Shown here: piece by piece, positions 3,527-28,578 of the stretch | Layout: every line of letters begins with the position of its first letter | Position numbering within the stretch: position 1 is the stretch's first letter | DNA from: Victivallales bacterium | Lineage (GTDB): Bacteria; Verrucomicrobiota; Lentisphaeria; Victivallales; GWF2-38-69 | Assembly: GCA_021733985.1 (NCBI GenBank) | Contig: JAIPJT010000023.1 | Coordinates: 1 to 41,849, forward strand | Length of the DNA stretch: 41,849 nt | Direction: 5' to 3' | Position numbers and translations under genes: made by a program | The notes under the pieces: generated by a model | The model's input: the letters and a program-made list of their open reading frames with translations, nothing else | What the model was told of the DNA's origin: nothing | Databases searched by the model: none

Positions 3527-3542
3527 CGAACAGTTATTTATG

Positions 3543-3624
3543 TCTTTCCTTCGCCGGCATTACCCGGAGCAGGTTCAAATGGTCGAAGTTTTTTTAAGCT
3601 TCCTCTCAGCCCTGACGGCTCCCA
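3543..3624 (-). ncRNA. TPP riboswitch aptamer (THI element)
   Basis: Minus-strand RNA beginning gggagccgtcagggctgaga, with the conserved GCUGAGA segment, then the second conserved block tgaacctgctccgggtaatg and ccggcgaaggaaag. This is the standard order of a THI box: P2/P3 arm with CUGAGA, P4/P5 arm with UGAACCUG and GGGUAAUGCC. It heads the thiB-thiP operon. With the terminator at 3494-3526 it forms a transcriptional OFF switch: TPP binding closes P1, frees the terminator and stops synthesis of the importer. Confidence 0.95.
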
Positions 3625-3625
3625 T

Positions 3626-3631
3626 ATTATA
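3626..3631 (-). promoter_or_regulatory. -10 box of the thi operon promoter
   Basis: A perfect TATAAT on the minus strand, about 7 bases before the first conserved aptamer bases, so transcription should begin almost at the riboswitch. No good -35 match is visible at 15-17 bases upstream (best is tgttca at 15). Confidence 0.55.
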
Positions 3632-3920
3632 ATGAATGATTATCAGTGAACATATAAAGAAAAATCGTAAATCAGAAATTTTTAAAAAAAATAATCCCTA
3701 AATTAAGAACTTGTTTAATATATTAAAACATATTTCTAAAGTTTTCAATACATTTCGGAAAGTTTTCACTTTACTTGGGCTGACTTTATTATATTCTAAT
3801 ACGGATTATAGGTTAAATAATTTAAATTTATTAGAATTTTCCAGATAAATAACCTAATATAATAAATACAAAATATCGGTTTATCCTAAATAAATTGCAA
3901 TAATTAAAGGGAAGGTTTGT
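3632..3920. other. AT-rich divergent intergenic region before sodN
   Basis: It separates the leftward thi promoter from sodN. Partly inverted segments taggtta (about 3810) and taaccta (about 3850) flank an A/T tract and could serve as an operator for sodN. No known Nur or Fur box was recognised. The SD for sodN (gggaagg) is at its right end. Confidence 0.35.
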
Positions 3921-5777: not shown

Positions 5778-7724
5778 ATGGAGACAAATAATTTAAAATC
5801 GCAATCATATTTAAGACTTTTTAAATATATAAAACCTTATAAAACTGTTTTAATTATAGGAATAATCGCCGGGATCATGACCGGTGGGTTTTTAGGCGCA
5901 AGTTTTTTCTGGCTTAAAGGCTTGGTTGAACCGTTTGAAAAAACACCGCCTAAAATAATTAAAACTGCTGACACTAAAATTGAACCTCCGCAGCAGGCCA
6001 AACCTCCGCAGCAGGCCAAACCTCCGCAGCAGGCCAAACCTCAAAAAAAGAAAAAATCTCTGGAAGAATCCAAACTTGATTCCATTATATACATAGCAGC
6101 AGAATATGGAATCCAGCTTCAGGATAATAAAGGCAATATGACTCTGCTGGGAATGATTATTTTTGTTGGGTCTTTTGTGCTTGTATGGCTGTTGAAAAAC
6201 TTTGCTATTTATATAAACGGCTACTGTATGAGATGGGTAGGGACAAAGGTTATAACAGATATGAGGGGTGAAATATTTCACAAAATACTTAGCCAGTCCC
6301 TTTTATTTTACAGTAAAGCAGAAGTCGGCCAGCTTATAAGCCGTTGCGTGGAAGATACAAACCAGATCCAGGATGGAGTTTCAAATAAAATAGCTGATTT
6401 AACGAGCTGTCCGTTTCAGGTTGCCGGATGCATAGGGTATATTATATATGTTTCTGTTGTAAATGATAATTTTGTAATGCTGATAACACTTGGCCTTTGC
6501 GGTCTGGGCATATTATTCCCTATAATTCTTATCGGCAGAAAAATAAGAGGTGTTTACAAGGGTGCATTTCAAAAGGTTGCGGAAGTAATATCAAGAATGC
6601 ATGAAGTTTTTACAGGAATAGTTCAGGTAAAGGCTTTTCATACTGAAAAATATGAGTCTGATAAATTTAATAAAGTAAATCAAAACTACTGTAAAAGCTT
6701 AATTAAAGGTGCAAAAGCAGAACTCATAATAAGCCCGGCTACAGAAACTCTCGGAGTGTGTGCAATGGGGGCGTTCTTTGTTTACGCTTTTATTGACCAG
6801 GTGCATCTTTCAGATATTGTTACTCTGGTAGTCCCTGCTCTTTTAATTTATCAGCCTCTTAAGGTTTTGGTCAGGTTAAATGCAAGCATACAGAAAGTTA
6901 TGGCTGCAGCAGACAGGTACTTCAACATCATTGATACAGAAAACAAGCTTGTTGAAGCTACTCACCCCAAAAGACTTCCCTCTTTTGAAAAGGAAATAGA
7001 GTTTAAAAATGTCGCTTTTTCCTATGATGATGATCAGATGAGAGTTCTAAAGGATATTAACTTCACACTTAAAAAAGGCAAAACTATCGCAGTTGTTGGC
7101 GAAACGGGTTCAGGAAAAACTACTATAGCAAATCTTCTTGCAAGGTTTTATGATGCAACTGAAGGCCAGGTTCTGATAGACGGCATTGATGTCCGTGATA
7201 TTAAAATAAAAGATCTTCGGGATCAGGTCGGGATAGTAACTCAAAACACAATTCTGTTCAATGATACTATTGCTAATAATATTGCTTACGGCAGGCCTAA
7301 CACTCCAATGGAGGATATTGTCAAAGCAGCAAAGCGTGCAAATGCTCATAAGTTTATAACTTCAGGCATACACGGCGTGGGTTATAATACTGTTGTTGGT
7401 GAGAAAGGTTTTGTTCTTAGCGGCGGCGAAAAACAGAGAATAGCGATCGCAAGGGCAATACTTAAAAATCCGCCTATTTTAATATTGGACGAAGCAACGA
7501 GTGCTCTCGATACAGTTACTGAGAAATTAGTTCAGGAAGCTATAAACAATCTTATGGAAAACAGGACGGTTTTTGCCATTGCCCACAGGTTAAGTACAAT
7601 CAAACATGCAGATGAGATACTTGTACTGAAAAAAGGCACTATTATAGAAAGAGGCACTCATTCTGAATTAATGAAAATAAAGGATGGTATATATCAGTAC
7701 CTGCATGATATGCAGTTTAATTAG
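5778..7724 (+). CDS. MsbA-like ABC exporter with Pro/Gln-rich loop insertion
   Basis: A 648-residue half-transporter: six-helix exporter domain, then ATPase. The ATPase shows Walker A GETGSGKTT, signature LSGGEKQR, Walker B ILILDEATSALD and the switch His in AHRLST. Family members such as MsbA flip lipid A-core or other lipids across the inner membrane as dimers. TM1 is near residues 19-45. The first extracytoplasmic loop is enlarged to roughly 70 residues and holds three exact PPQQAK repeats followed by a lysine-rich stretch; TM2 starts near 120. It lies between a sugar-nucleotide aminotransferase (3-base gap) and a PAS protein (2-base gap) in one operon. Lipid A export is the most likely job but other lipid cargo is possible. 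Confidence 0.85.
   Translation: METNNLKSQSYLRLFKYIKPYKTVLIIGIIAGIMTGGFLGASFFWLKGLVEPFEKTPPKIIKTADTKIEPPQQAKPPQQAKPPQQAKPQKKKKSLEESKLDSIIYIAAEYGIQLQDNKGNMTLLGMIIFVGSFVLVWLLKNFAIYINGYCMRWVGTKVITDMRGEIFHKILSQSLLFYSKAEVGQLISRCVEDTNQIQDGVSNKIADLTSCPFQVAGCIGYIIYVSVVNDNFVMLITLGLCGLGILFPIILIGRKIRGVYKGAFQKVAEVISRMHEVFTGIVQVKAFHTEKYESDKFNKVNQNYCKSLIKGAKAELIISPATETLGVCAMGAFFVYAFIDQVHLSDIVTLVVPALLIYQPLKVLVRLNASIQKVMAAADRYFNIIDTENKLVEATHPKRLPSFEKEIEFKNVAFSYDDDQMRVLKDINFTLKKGKTIAVVGETGSGKTTIANLLARFYDATEGQVLIDGIDVRDIKIKDLRDQVGIVTQNTILFNDTIANNIAYGRPNTPMEDIVKAAKRANAHKFITSGIHGVGYNTVVGEKGFVLSGGEKQRIAIARAILKNPPILILDEATSALDTVTEKLVQEAINNLMENRTVFAIAHRLSTIKHADEILVLKKGTIIERGTHSELMKIKDGIYQYLHDMQFN
5985..6038 (+). repeat. 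Three exact tandem copies of an 18-base coding repeat
   Basis: The unit cctccgcagcaggccaaa occurs at 5985-6002, 6003-6020 and 6021-6038, in frame, encoding PPQQAK three times in the first extracytoplasmic loop of the ABC exporter. The copies are identical at DNA level, which suggests recent slippage expansion. A partial fourth unit (cct ca) follows. Confidence 0.95.
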
Positions 7725-12003: not shown

Positions 12004-12275
12004 TTTGTAAAAATCAAGATTTGATCTGACGGGAGTGACCGAAAACTGCAGACCGCATAAAAACAGTTATACTTATTAGGCTTCGTAATATTTTGTTGCT
12101 TACCCTCTTAATAAGCTGAATAAGGTCCACTTTCGTTATGTGCTGTTTACTTCCTATTGCTTCCTTCAGACAATACCGTAACCAATACTGCCCTTGCAAT
12201 TCGGATTAACTTCCCCCTGAACAGGGTGTTTCATGCTTCTTACAGCATGACGGGTTTGCCAGCTTTGCCGGGCAA
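12004..12275. other. Intergenic, no supported gene
   Basis: A minus-strand frame at 12014-12199 has no ribosome site and no recognisable family, and I do not accept it. The G+C and texture differ from the flanking DUF349 gene, so this may be decayed foreign sequence. A hairpin gtttgcc/ggcaaac (12254-12276) precedes the STAS terminator. Confidence 0.45.
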
Positions 12276-25748: not shown

Positions 25749-26444
25749 ATGAAAATTGGCTATACAGGTTTAAACCTTCCTGAAGGCAAAGTCAAGTTTA
25801 AGGATGAAAGGCTTGCCGCACTCGAAAAGAAAGATAAACCCAAAAAAGTTTCCCCGTATTTCGCTAAATTTATTAAAGACGAATTCGTTCACTGTGATGT
25901 TATAGCTGTTAACAAAGATAGCATTCTTGATTTACTAATTTATGATATGGAAAAAGCTGAAGGCAGAATAGGGAGGGCTGCTAACGATTTAGAAAAGACA
26001 CTGATGCAGAGGTGCATGGAGAATATGGAGAAGGAAATTCCTCTCTGCGATATTGATTTTTCAGAAAATGAACTTGAGATAATGAAAACTGCAAATTTCT
26101 ACAGTTTTATACCGGTTCTGCAGCTTACTGATGAAGAAACTGATGATGTAAATTCGGTTATTCAGAAAGCCCTTGATAAAGCTGATTATATGTTTTTTTA
26201 TACAAGCGGTCCTAAAGAATCGCATGCGTGGCTTGTAAAGAAAAACTCAGATATAGTAACCTGTGCCGGAAAAATTCATACAGACCTTGCCAGAGGTTTT
26301 ATCAGAGGTGATGTTGTAACGTTTGAAGAATATATGCAGCACCATAACTTCAATGAATGCAAGTCCAAAGGAGTAGCAAGGGTTGTAGAAAAGGATTACA
26401 TAGTTCAGCCTAATGAAGTGATTGAAATCAGGTTTAATGTTTAA
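25749..26444 (+). CDS. YchF/OLA1-related TGS protein without a functional GTPase domain
   Basis: 231 residues against about 363 for YchF. The C-terminal ~75 residues are a clear YchF-type TGS domain (KESHAWLVKKNSDIVTCAGK, IHTDLARGFIRGDVVTFEEY, then KDYIVQPNEVIEIRFNV). The middle RIGRAANDLEKTLMQR matches the YchF helical segment between its nucleotide-binding parts. The N-terminus MKIGYTGLNLPEGK keeps a trace of YchF's first strand (GIVGLPNVGKST) but lacks the GKS/T P-loop, the DxxG switch and the NxxE base-recognition motif. It therefore should not bind ATP or GTP the usual way. It may be a ribosome- or tRNA-binding remnant of the family. Cotranscribed with mtnA. Confidence 0.82.
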   Translation: MKIGYTGLNLPEGKVKFKDERLAALEKKDKPKKVSPYFAKFIKDEFVHCDVIAVNKDSILDLLIYDMEKAEGRIGRAANDLEKTLMQRCMENMEKEIPLCDIDFSENELEIMKTANFYSFIPVLQLTDEETDDVNSVIQKALDKADYMFFYTSGPKESHAWLVKKNSDIVTCAGKIHTDLARGFIRGDVVTFEEYMQHHNFNECKSKGVARVVEKDYIVQPNEVIEIRFNV

Positions 26445-26450
26445 AAATAA

Positions 26451-26476
26451 AGAGCACTGGCTCTCTATTTTTCATT
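26451..26476 (+). terminator. Weak intrinsic terminator between convergent genes
   Basis: Stem agagc-actg-gctct (26451-26464) followed by ctatttttcatttttt. It ends the mtnA operon. The stem is short (5 bases), so strength is uncertain. proC ends at 26465 on the other strand. Confidence 0.55.
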
Positions 26477-27280
26477 TTTTTTATAAAGATTCCGGGCCTT
26501 TTCCGCTGAAGTTGTAATACCTTTTATCAAAGCTGAACTGAAACCTTCATGTTCCATTCTGTTAAGTCCGGCAATAGTACAGCCCAGAGGCGTAGTTACC
26601 CTGTCTACTTCAAATTCAGGATGATTCTCAGAAGTCAGGAGCAGGGTTGCGGCACCTTTAGCAGTCTGTGCCGCCATTTTGATAGCCTCTTTAGACGGAA
26701 AACCTATCTCTATCCCCCCCTGTGAAGCGGCTCTGATCGCTCTCAGAAAAAACGCTGTACCGCAGGCAGCAAGTGCGGTGGAAGAACTCATCAGCTCTTC
26801 TTCTATAACAAGTGTTTTTCCAACAGTATTGAAAATATTCTCTGCTATTTCTACAGATTTCTCATCAGCTTTATTGTAGCAAATACATGTCATAGATTCT
26901 TTTACGGCAACTGCTGTATTAGGCATTGCTCTGATAATAGTGCAGCTGTTTCCTATTTGCTCAGAAATCTGTGCAATCTTAACACCGGTAGCTACTGATA
27001 TAAGCAAATGTTCTTCTCGCATGCCTGACTTAATTTCAACTAAAACCTTATTAATATGCTGAGGCTCAACAGCAACTATTATTACATCTGCAGCCTTAAC
27101 AGCTTCGATATTATCATCAGTCAAAATAAAACCTTTATCACGCATATGCTCAAGCTTTTGTAGTTTTCTACGTGTAAGTGTTATATTTTCAGGTTTAAAA
27201 ATCCCTGACTCATAAAGACCGTTGGCAATTGAAGTACCTAAATTCCCGGAACCTAAAATCGAAATCTTTAATTTATCCAT
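26465..27280 (-). CDS. proC: Pyrroline-5-carboxylate reductase
   Basis: 271 residues. The Rossmann start ISILGSGNLGTSIANGL, VIIVAVEPQHI, LISVATGVKI, RAMPNTAVAVKESMTCI, ALAACGTAFFLRAIRAASQGG and DRVTTPLGCTIAGLNRME are all ProC blocks. It reduces 1-pyrroline-5-carboxylate to proline with NAD(P)H, the last step of proline synthesis. SD gggaag before the ATG. Convergent with the YchF-like gene. Confidence 0.94.
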   Translation of the reverse strand: MDKLKISILGSGNLGTSIANGLYESGIFKPENITLTRRKLQKLEHMRDKGFILTDDNIEAVKAADVIIVAVEPQHINKVLVEIKSGMREEHLLISVATGVKIAQISEQIGNSCTIIRAMPNTAVAVKESMTCICYNKADEKSVEIAENIFNTVGKTLVIEEELMSSSTALAACGTAFFLRAIRAASQGGIEIGFPSKEAIKMAAQTAKGAATLLLTSENHPEFEVDRVTTPLGCTIAGLNRMEHEGFSSALIKGITTSAEKARNLYKKNEK

Positions 27281-27433
27281 AACGTCTTCCCTAATTCGCT
27301 ATTACTTATATTTTTGCGGACTGCAATTTTTTTTCAAGTACATATTTGATCAATATAAAAATGAGGCCTTACCGGCATAATTCAGAATAAAGCCCTTATT
27401 AGAATAATTTCAAGTAAATTTTCATAAACGCTG

Positions 27434-27462
27434 TTGCAACTGATTGATTTTTACATTATATA
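27434..27462 (+). promoter_or_regulatory. Promoter of the aro leader
   Basis: TTGCAA (27434-27439), 17-base spacer, TATATA (27457-27462). Transcription would start near 27469, about 26 bases before the leader-peptide ATG. A second TATAAT at 27572-27577 lacks a -35 at normal spacing; if used it would bypass the leader. Confidence 0.5.
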
Positions 27463-27495
27463 TAAAATATAATAATTAAAAAAATAAAAGAAAAA

Positions 27496-27552
27496 ATGAA
27501 TACCGCTTTAAAAAATAGTTTTTATTGGTTTTTTAGCGAAGCTCGACTGTAG
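27496..27552 (+). CDS. Leader peptide rich in aromatic residues (candidate attenuator)
   Basis: An 18-codon frame, MNTALKNSFYWFFSEARL, stop TAG at 27550-27552. Residues 9-13 are Phe-Tyr-Trp-Phe-Phe, a run of all three aromatic amino acids. It lies between a plausible promoter and an intrinsic terminator that precedes DAHP synthase, the entry enzyme of aromatic amino-acid synthesis. Such leader peptides (trpL, pheL types) sense charged-tRNA supply through ribosome stalling. The SD is weak (aaaag), and in AT-rich DNA Phe/Tyr codons are common, so chance is not excluded. The inference rests on the combined arrangement. Confidence 0.55.
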   Translation: MNTALKNSFYWFFSEARL

Positions 27553-27584
27553 CTTTGCCGGTATTCTATTAGTATAATATGCAG

Positions 27585-27617
27585 GGCCGCAGGCGAGCAA
27601 AAGCCGGCGGCCTTTTT
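27585..27617 (+). terminator. Intrinsic terminator in the DAHP-synthase leader (attenuator)
   Basis: ggccgcaggc (27585-27594) pairs with gccggcggcc (27603-27612): 9 base pairs and one A-G mismatch, 8-base loop gagcaaaa, then ttttt. It stands 68 bases before the aro start. gccgg at 27557-27561, just past the leader stop, can pair with ccggc (27604-27608) in the terminator's 3' arm, a possible antiterminator. Confidence 0.75.
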
Positions 27618-27684
27618 CATATCCGGCCGAACAACCGGTTTTCTCTTACCTGATGCCTCAAAATAAAATATAATGAGGTGCAAA

Positions 27685-28578
27685 ATGTTTTTAACAAAGA
27701 CTGAAAGAAGAAGAAAAATTGTTCAGGAAAATATCACCCTTAAGAAAACAGCCGCCAAAGATTTGCTGTCAGCTTTTAAGGAAACTGAAACTGGACGAAG
27801 GCCGGTCAATATCGACAATACAGTTCAAATCGGTGACGGAAGCCTTTGCATTATCGGCGGACCCTGTTCTGTAGAATCAGAAACTCAGATAATGCAGACT
27901 GCCCAGTTTGTAAAAGAAAGCGGTGCTAAAATTCTGAGAGGCGGGTGTTTCAAGCCGAGAACCTCCCCTTATGACTTCAGCGGCCTGGAAGAGCAGGGTC
28001 TGAAGCTTTTACGTAAAGCCGGCGACCGTTTTGAAATTCCGGTAGTCACTGAAGTAATGGATACCAGGGATATTGAATTAGTAATGAAATATTCTGATAT
28101 TCTTCAGATAGGCAGCAGAAACGCTATGAACTATTCGCTGCTGAGAGAAATAGGCAGAACAAATAAACCGATATTGCTGAAACGCGGCCTTATGATGACG
28201 ATTAAGGAATTCATAATGTCTGCTGAATATATTCTTTCAGAAGGCAATATGAATGTAGTTCTCTGTGAAAGAGGTATAAGGACTTTCGAAACTGAAACAA
28301 GAAACACTCTTGATATTTCTGCAATTCCGGTTTTAAAAGAAAAAACAAATTTGCCGGTGATTGTTGATCCTTCCCATTCAGCGGGAAAAAGGTCACTGAT
28401 CAAGCCGTTGTCCCTTGCAGCAGCAGCAGCAGGAGCCGACGGCCTTATGATAGAATGCCACATTTCCCCGGAATCCGCATTGTGTGACGGGAAACAGTCA
28501 CTTAACAGGGAGGAATTCGAGGATGCAGTAAATTCGGTTTCTATAATATCAGACGCCATTCACCCCGTTTTATACTGA
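27685..28578 (+). CDS. aroF: 3-deoxy-7-phosphoheptulonate (DAHP) synthase, class I-beta, no ACT domain
   Basis: 297 residues. KDO8P-synthase-like barrel: [34 protein letters not shown] (metal Cys, PEP-binding RGG/KPRTSPY), [54 protein letters not shown] and [30 protein letters not shown]. It condenses PEP with erythrose-4-phosphate, the first step of the shikimate pathway. ATG 27685 is chosen over 27673, because gagg (27675-27678) lies 6 bases upstream of it. There is no fused ACT or chorismate-mutase domain, and too few N-terminal residues for one, so feedback control must come from elsewhere. The upstream leader offers a candidate. Confidence 0.92.

Follow-up and report, generated by a model that had tools for sequence, protein, structure and literature searches.

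The DNA upstream of the DAHP synthase gene of a Victivallales bacterium (GenBank assembly GCA_021733985.1, contig JAIPJT010000023.1) is read here as a putative ribosome-mediated attenuator of the classical kind, which would sense charged Phe-, Tyr- and Trp-tRNA via one leader peptide and so control the synthase; we put the probability of this reading at roughly 0.9. Such attenuation had been proposed in a preliminary description of the window (the whole stretch of 41,849 nucleotides that was analysed), and it now has behind it an aromatic frame in all 17 copies of the element, covarying stems and a predicted ribosome-driven switch. The frame, the stems, their conservation and their covariation rest on sequence and comparison. 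The result is a covariation-supported attenuator family in uncultured bacteria, placed ahead of the gene for the enzyme that opens the shikimate pathway, and it offers a testable model in which a single leader may combine the signals of three end products.

The putative leader peptide (MNTALKNSFYWFFSEARL*) is encoded on the forward strand at 27496-27552, from an ATG at 27496 to a TAG at 27550 (18 codons), and holds the candidate regulatory codons Phe-Tyr-Trp-Phe-Phe at 27520-27534 (AGT TTT TAT TGG TTT TTT AGC, with FYWFF between AGT and AGC). This frame, the terminator and the DAHP synthase gene were all recovered where the preliminary description had placed them. When dinucleotide shuffles of the 362 upstream bases were scanned for frames of 8-45 codons, at least five consecutive F/Y/W residues were found in 16 of 4000, and a run of this kind containing all three aromatic residues in 4 of 4000. 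The leader is the sole frame with such a run among 506 short frames on the forward strand of the window, and two of the 504 short frames on the reverse strand contain one. The run is rare, yet in AT-rich DNA it is not decisive alone, and it is the comparative evidence that decides; its five aromatic codons are the fewest among the 17 copies. Several weaknesses of the leader had been raised previously. The poor Shine-Dalgarno (SD) sequence before it is real, and an SD-like motif precedes the assumed start of only 8 of the 22 window genes examined. The TATAAT between the leader stop and the terminator, regarded as a possible start signal downstream of the frame, occurs in none of the 16 other copies. 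An 11-base sequence of the leader does recur at 12261, by eye within another small inverted repeat, but no repeat-DNA origin of the leader was found: a search of the whole genome with 27300-27800 retrieved no second copy of the leader, and besides itself gave only one match, of 39 bases on contig C14, by eye in coding sequence.

Upstream of the leader, a consensus scan listed a promoter-like TTGATT-18-TATAAT on the forward strand (27444-27473; 10 of 12 positions), which is not evidence of function. The alternative TTGCAA-17-TATATA named earlier (TTGCAA at 27434, TATATA at 27457) is present in the sequence and is missing from the list of the scan. The intrinsic terminator lies at 27583-27617 on the forward strand, where RNAfold predicted 11 pairs with one A/G mismatch at -21.6 kcal/mol (27583-27590 and 27592-27594 with 27607-27614 and 27603-27605), ending in TTTTT at 27613-27617. 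The consensus scan gave no call here, the mismatch and the loop of 8 bases being the probable reason; the only terminator that it did report in this region was a weaker, terminator-like hairpin of five pairs at 27625-27640 (forward strand), between the attenuator and the gene. In some Spirochaetota copies of the element, G+C-rich inverted repeats were seen by eye past the terminator. The DAHP synthase gene itself (27685-28578, forward strand; 297 amino acids) was identified by an NCBIfam match (TIGR01361, 381.7 bits against a cut-off of 267.75) and by sequence comparison with PDB entries, and its enzyme makes the residues whose codons fill the leader run. Translation probably starts at the ATG at 27685, which has GAGGTG ahead of it and lies 67 bases past the T run; the longest frame opens at an ATG at 27673 (301 amino acids), and the former is the likelier start.

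The predicted pairings follow the classical 1:2, 2:3 and 3:4 layout, the last being the terminator. Segment 1 (GAATACCG, 27498-27505) would pair with CGGTATTC at 27559-27566. Segment 2 (27541-27558) overlaps the end of the leader and its stop codon, and would form an antiterminator of 16 pairs with segment 3 (27581-27598), which comprises the 5' arm and loop of the terminator. A fold of 27540-27604, which ends before the terminator 3' arm, gave this 16-pair helix at -24.2 kcal/mol. In the ribosome-free, full-length fold, segment 2 is hidden by a hairpin at 27536-27558 (GCGAAGCT/AGCTTTGC, arms 27536-27543 and 27551-27558); all of these segments are on the forward strand. From this arrangement the following course may be proposed. 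With aromatic residues plentiful, the ribosome would reach the stop at 27550 and cover segment 2, and the terminator at 27583-27617 would form. With an aromatic tRNA in short supply, it would stall on 27520-27534 and leave segment 2 free to pair with segment 3 before the 3' arm of the terminator is made, such that RNA polymerase would read on. If the leader is not translated, segment 2 would be expected to stay hidden by segment 1 together with the hairpin at 27536-27558. The transcription start, the stalling and the kinetics implied by this course are inferred, as is which of the three residues would matter in the cell.

The switch was simulated with a ribosome footprint assumed to extend from -14 to +16 of the P-site. 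In the window, the 16-pair antiterminator was predicted with the ribosome on any of the first three aromatic codons and retained 11 pairs with it on the fifth; at the stop the antiterminator was lost and the terminator formed. The predicted equilibrium of the full-length RNA with a ribosome at the Trp codon was the terminator state (-30.0), so read-through would need the antiterminator to have formed first, as in the accepted model of trp attenuation, and the order of transcription would matter. Before the 3' arm is made, the minimum free energy structure of the ribosome-free window RNA was the antiterminator; untranslated RNA may therefore be leaky. The 1:2 duplex of the window (-11.5) is the weakest of the 17 copies.

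Named DAHP synthase loci from Spirochaetota share the leader design of the window. A covariance model (R1) containing the terminator pairs only was built from the window and seven Spirochaetota loci chosen by eye for likeness of their leaders; the phylum was taken from the record titles of these loci (five Spirochaetes/Spirochaetota, one Spirochaetia, and L038, from genome G395, labelled 'uncultured bacterium'). The model found one match in the genome of the window and matches in 16 of 392 genomes of the Spirochaetota, all seven seed-locus genomes being among these 16. Within the phylum of the window it matched 2 of 387 genomes, namely the window's own and one with a bare terminator, and no other convincing copy was found among the 387 sampled. 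These genome counts are lower bounds, since stricter filters applied whenever over 40 genomes were searched. Two matches were rejected, G260, a terminator without a leader and with no DAHP synthase found in its locus (93 N), and G400 (E 0.095), in whose locus no DAHP synthase was found either. In the 17 copies retained, the aromatic run spans 5-12 positions and is present throughout, with Trp inside it in 12. Relatives that keep the terminator without the aromatic frame, which the preliminary description had held would speak against attenuation, were sought among these copies and all 17 have the frame. The aromatic codons are conserved, though their order and number vary. A DAHP synthase follows in 16 of 17 copies, the remaining locus (L127) stopping at a contig end, and those of the 15 copies besides the window are 59-69% identical to that of the window. 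The stop codon falls inside segment 2 in 16 of 17. In the exception, L132 (1501-1625, reverse strand), the leader stops at a TAA right after the aromatic run while the CTCGTAGC motif persists downstream, as if conserved for RNA pairing and not for the peptide.

Folding of all 17 copies gave a consistent picture: with a simulated stall on the first aromatic codon the antiterminator (at least 8 pairs) was predicted in 17 of 17, with the ribosome in the middle of the run in 16 (L126 fails), and with the ribosome at the stop the antiterminator was gone and the terminator formed in every copy. The 1:2 pairs appeared in the ribosome-free fold of all copies except L123. Covariation was assessed on an alignment made with the model, which lacks the antiterminator pairs, the pairs tested being drawn from one row of that alignment. 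With the eight seeds, 86.7% of antiterminator cells were paired, with changes on both sides in 8 of 16 pairs, and the terminator was 96.9% paired. Across 17 sequences the antiterminator was 85.6% paired, against 38-55% when slid by 1-3 columns, and 8 of 16 pairs had changes on both sides, a number reached in 6 of 500 shuffles. Its covariation score of 0.370 compared with 0.260 +/- 0.021 for shuffles that leave the relatedness among the copies in place, and none of 500 scored as high. The row of the window forms 15 of the 16 pairs. In the nine copies that took no part in model building, 120 of 142 cells were paired (84.5%; 40-57% when slid), and 3 of 16 pairs had changed on both sides. The terminator, across the 17, was 97.5% paired, with changes on both sides in 5 of 12 pairs and a covariation of 0.286 against 0.196 +/- 0.014 shuffled. 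Covarying terminator and antiterminator stems in relatives, which had been set as a check on the original proposal, are hence present, the antiterminator being 2:3 and not the pairing first drawn.

In a swap test, the pairing of each segment with its own partner was compared with its pairing with the corresponding partners from relatives, for all three stems. Energies with own and swapped partners were -21.2 and -13.9 kcal/mol for 1:2, -23.4 and -19.2 for 2:3, and -23.1 and -20.2 for 3:4. For each stem none of 20000 permutations was as good in the 17 copies, and the same was found in 11 less redundant copies. All three stems were likewise better with their own partner in the eight seeds (2 of 20000 permutations as good), and in the nine new copies the corresponding numbers for 1:2, 2:3 and 3:4 were 0, 1 and 3 of 20000. 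A column count of the 1:2 pairs in one register was not supportive (56.6% paired in eight sequences against 55.8% shuffled), and sliding it by +3 exceeded the given register; the register thus differs among copies, and the column count decides nothing.

Three other explanations were weighed against these data. The preliminary description had drawn the antiterminator differently, with 27557-27561 pairing with the 3' arm of the terminator. That pairing exists, as a duplex of -14.5 kcal/mol, but 2:3 is stronger, at -19.5 kcal/mol (-24.3 and -25.6 with longer windows), and covaries in the 17 sequences; relatives have other bases at the position of 27557-27561, and these join the 1:2 pairing instead. 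Moreover, pairing with the 3' arm can begin only when the terminator itself can form. An attenuator working in this manner is consequently judged very unlikely.

It is still harder to credit a plain upstream terminator, whether the end of another transcript or a constitutive damper, with an aromatic frame arising by chance. Intrinsic terminators are common, an AT-rich leader raises the odds of Phe and Tyr codons, and such a run was, after all, yielded by those 16 shuffles; against this, the upstream neighbour, a proC-like gene at 26465-27280, is on the reverse strand and directed away from the leader, and the aromatic frame recurs in all 17 copies, whose antiterminator covaries. We consider equally improbable a leader that binds a protein or ligand (a T-box, a TRAP-like site or a riboswitch), with the frame incidental. 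Rfam matches at the attenuator were sub-threshold only (trpB motif RF04312, 27.3 bits against a gathering threshold of 59; leu-phe_leader, 21.9 against 70), and no family reached gathering here or in any of the seven relatives' loci used as seeds, T-box and TRAP being judged through Rfam alone. The varying aromatic codons and the position of the stop inside segment 2 (16 of 17; earlier in L132) fit a ribosome sensor, in line with the preferred reading of ribosome-mediated attenuation.

The attenuators of the enterobacterial trp, phe and ilv operons follow the same three-stem logic, and in ilv a single leader peptide responds to several residues, but they differ from the window in residues, genes and sequence. 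Closer in function is the aroR leader of Corynebacterium glutamicum, described in the accessible text of PMC11802643 and PMC4046766 as carrying Phe-Tyr-Phe before aroF and acting by ribosome-mediated attenuation. As in the window, an aromatic-codon leader peptide precedes a DAHP synthase gene, whereas the phylum is another and the stated motif lacks Trp, the two being set side by side by description only. In the same accessible text, Phe limitation is reported to be effective and Tyr availability without effect (PMC11802643), so the codons of the window need not all be sensed; the trpL and pheL leaders are also mentioned there. A second precedent is uORFC-13-1 of Acholeplasma, in which a terminator accompanies a short upstream frame holding one or more Phe codons, exclusively before aroF (3-deoxy-7-phosphoheptulonate synthase), with 24 representatives from Acholeplasma and environmental sequence only, according to the available part of PMC8632094. 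It resembles the window in having a short Phe-codon frame and a terminator before a DAHP synthase and differs in that Phe alone is represented, this comparison too being by description only. Given these two precedents, the mechanism is known, and that of the window is a new family of the kind. For the Actinobacteria, the accessible text of PMC1262725 reports no conserved RNA regulatory structures before phenylalanine or tyrosine operons. No report of this attenuator family in Spirochaetota was found in searches of open-access papers; in its available part, PMC8632094 names Spirochaetes only among the phyla sampled, and the main text of PMC2965389, as far as accessible, makes no mention of DAHP, aroF, aroG, aroA, aromatic or deoxy. 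The attenuator family appears to be uncatalogued, whilst the kind of switch is well known.

Aromatic leaders were also sought ahead of other DAHP synthases. Besides the window and a paralogue on contig C44 of the same genome, 109 loci were collected as those of the nearest DAHP synthases, and hence not as a random sample; four with short or N-rich upstream DNA were dropped and 105 examined. A short frame with at least six aromatic residues in ten was found in 28 of the 105, compared with 1.5 expected from shuffles and none on the reverse strand; the window scores 5 by this measure and would not pass it. Twenty-three leaders (the window and the 22 of those 28 that lie outside the model family) were tested for an antiterminator, and all except L052, which is without a terminator, had a terminator-like hairpin. 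In 19 of these 22 the segment past the aromatic run paired with the 5' side of the terminator better than shuffles (p <= 0.05); L064, L096 and L104 had no such pairing at p 0.05. These unrelated leaders occur in the order to which the window belongs (aromatic leaders of different sequence in 6 of 29 loci), in Acidobacteriota, Peregrinibacteria, Bacillota and others. They share with the window the aromatic frame, the terminator and, in most of those tested, a predicted 5'-arm antiterminator, yet are not matched by model R1, which gave no match in the 90 loci searched with it, out of 103 DAHP synthase loci outside the seeds. Their presence in several phyla suggests that control of this kind is common and that it has emerged, or been remodelled, on many occasions. 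When 20 related loci were compared with Rfam, the single match was SpR18_sRNA (88.3 bits) at 1264-1396 of L096, from Anaerococcus, approximately 1.6 kb ahead of the DAHP synthase match and 1.2 kb upstream of the leader.

The enzyme had been taken for the lone DAHP synthase of its genome, which proved incorrect: contig C44 encodes a second, of 341 amino acids and 50% identical to it. When the window enzyme is numbered from ATG 27685, its residue 45 corresponds in the alignment to residue 86 of 1rzm from Thermotoga maritima and its residue 43 to residue 14 of 1zco, such that N-terminal to the aligned core the window enzyme is about 41 residues shorter than 1rzm; its 297 amino acids lie between the 262 of 1zco and the 338 of 1rzm. 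The part absent from its N-terminus is presumably the feedback-control domain.

In two trees, one quick with 70 rows and one careful with 35, the window enzyme grouped with the attenuated Spirochaetota enzymes (SH-aLRT 96 in the set including L040; 86/95). Four constrained trees beat the free one in the quick analysis, so its search was incomplete, and in AU tests on the careful tree six alternative placements were not rejected (p 0.148-0.434). The element perhaps moved between phyla together with its gene, which the trees favour and do not prove; as the AU tests reject no other placement, transfer is left as likely only. A better argument for transfer than the trees is the leader itself, which the two phyla share and which no other of the 387 sampled genomes of the window's phylum was found to carry. 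If transfer is true, regulation moved between phyla along with the gene that it controls. Tentatively, and with more doubt than confidence, gene and attenuator could be regarded as a self-contained cassette of Spirochaetota origin: one leader reading Phe, Tyr and Trp together would drive a DAHP synthase whose N-terminus is shortened and which may be free of allosteric control, and the pair would have passed to another phylum, where it may now work beside a longer resident enzyme.

Other features were noted elsewhere in the window. A TPP riboswitch (RF00059, 61.4 bits) at 3528-3635 on the reverse strand lies upstream of two reverse-strand frames that by eye encode the binding protein and permease of an ABC transporter. 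A 231-residue frame at 25749-26444 (forward strand) matches positions 266-368 of the YchF model TIGR00092 over its residues 129-231, at 95.8 bits, far under the cut-off of 279.2, and its N-terminal half is unmatched. The N-terminal part of the frame at 5778-7724 (forward strand), by eye an ABC exporter, contains a short tandem repeat (QAKPPQ).
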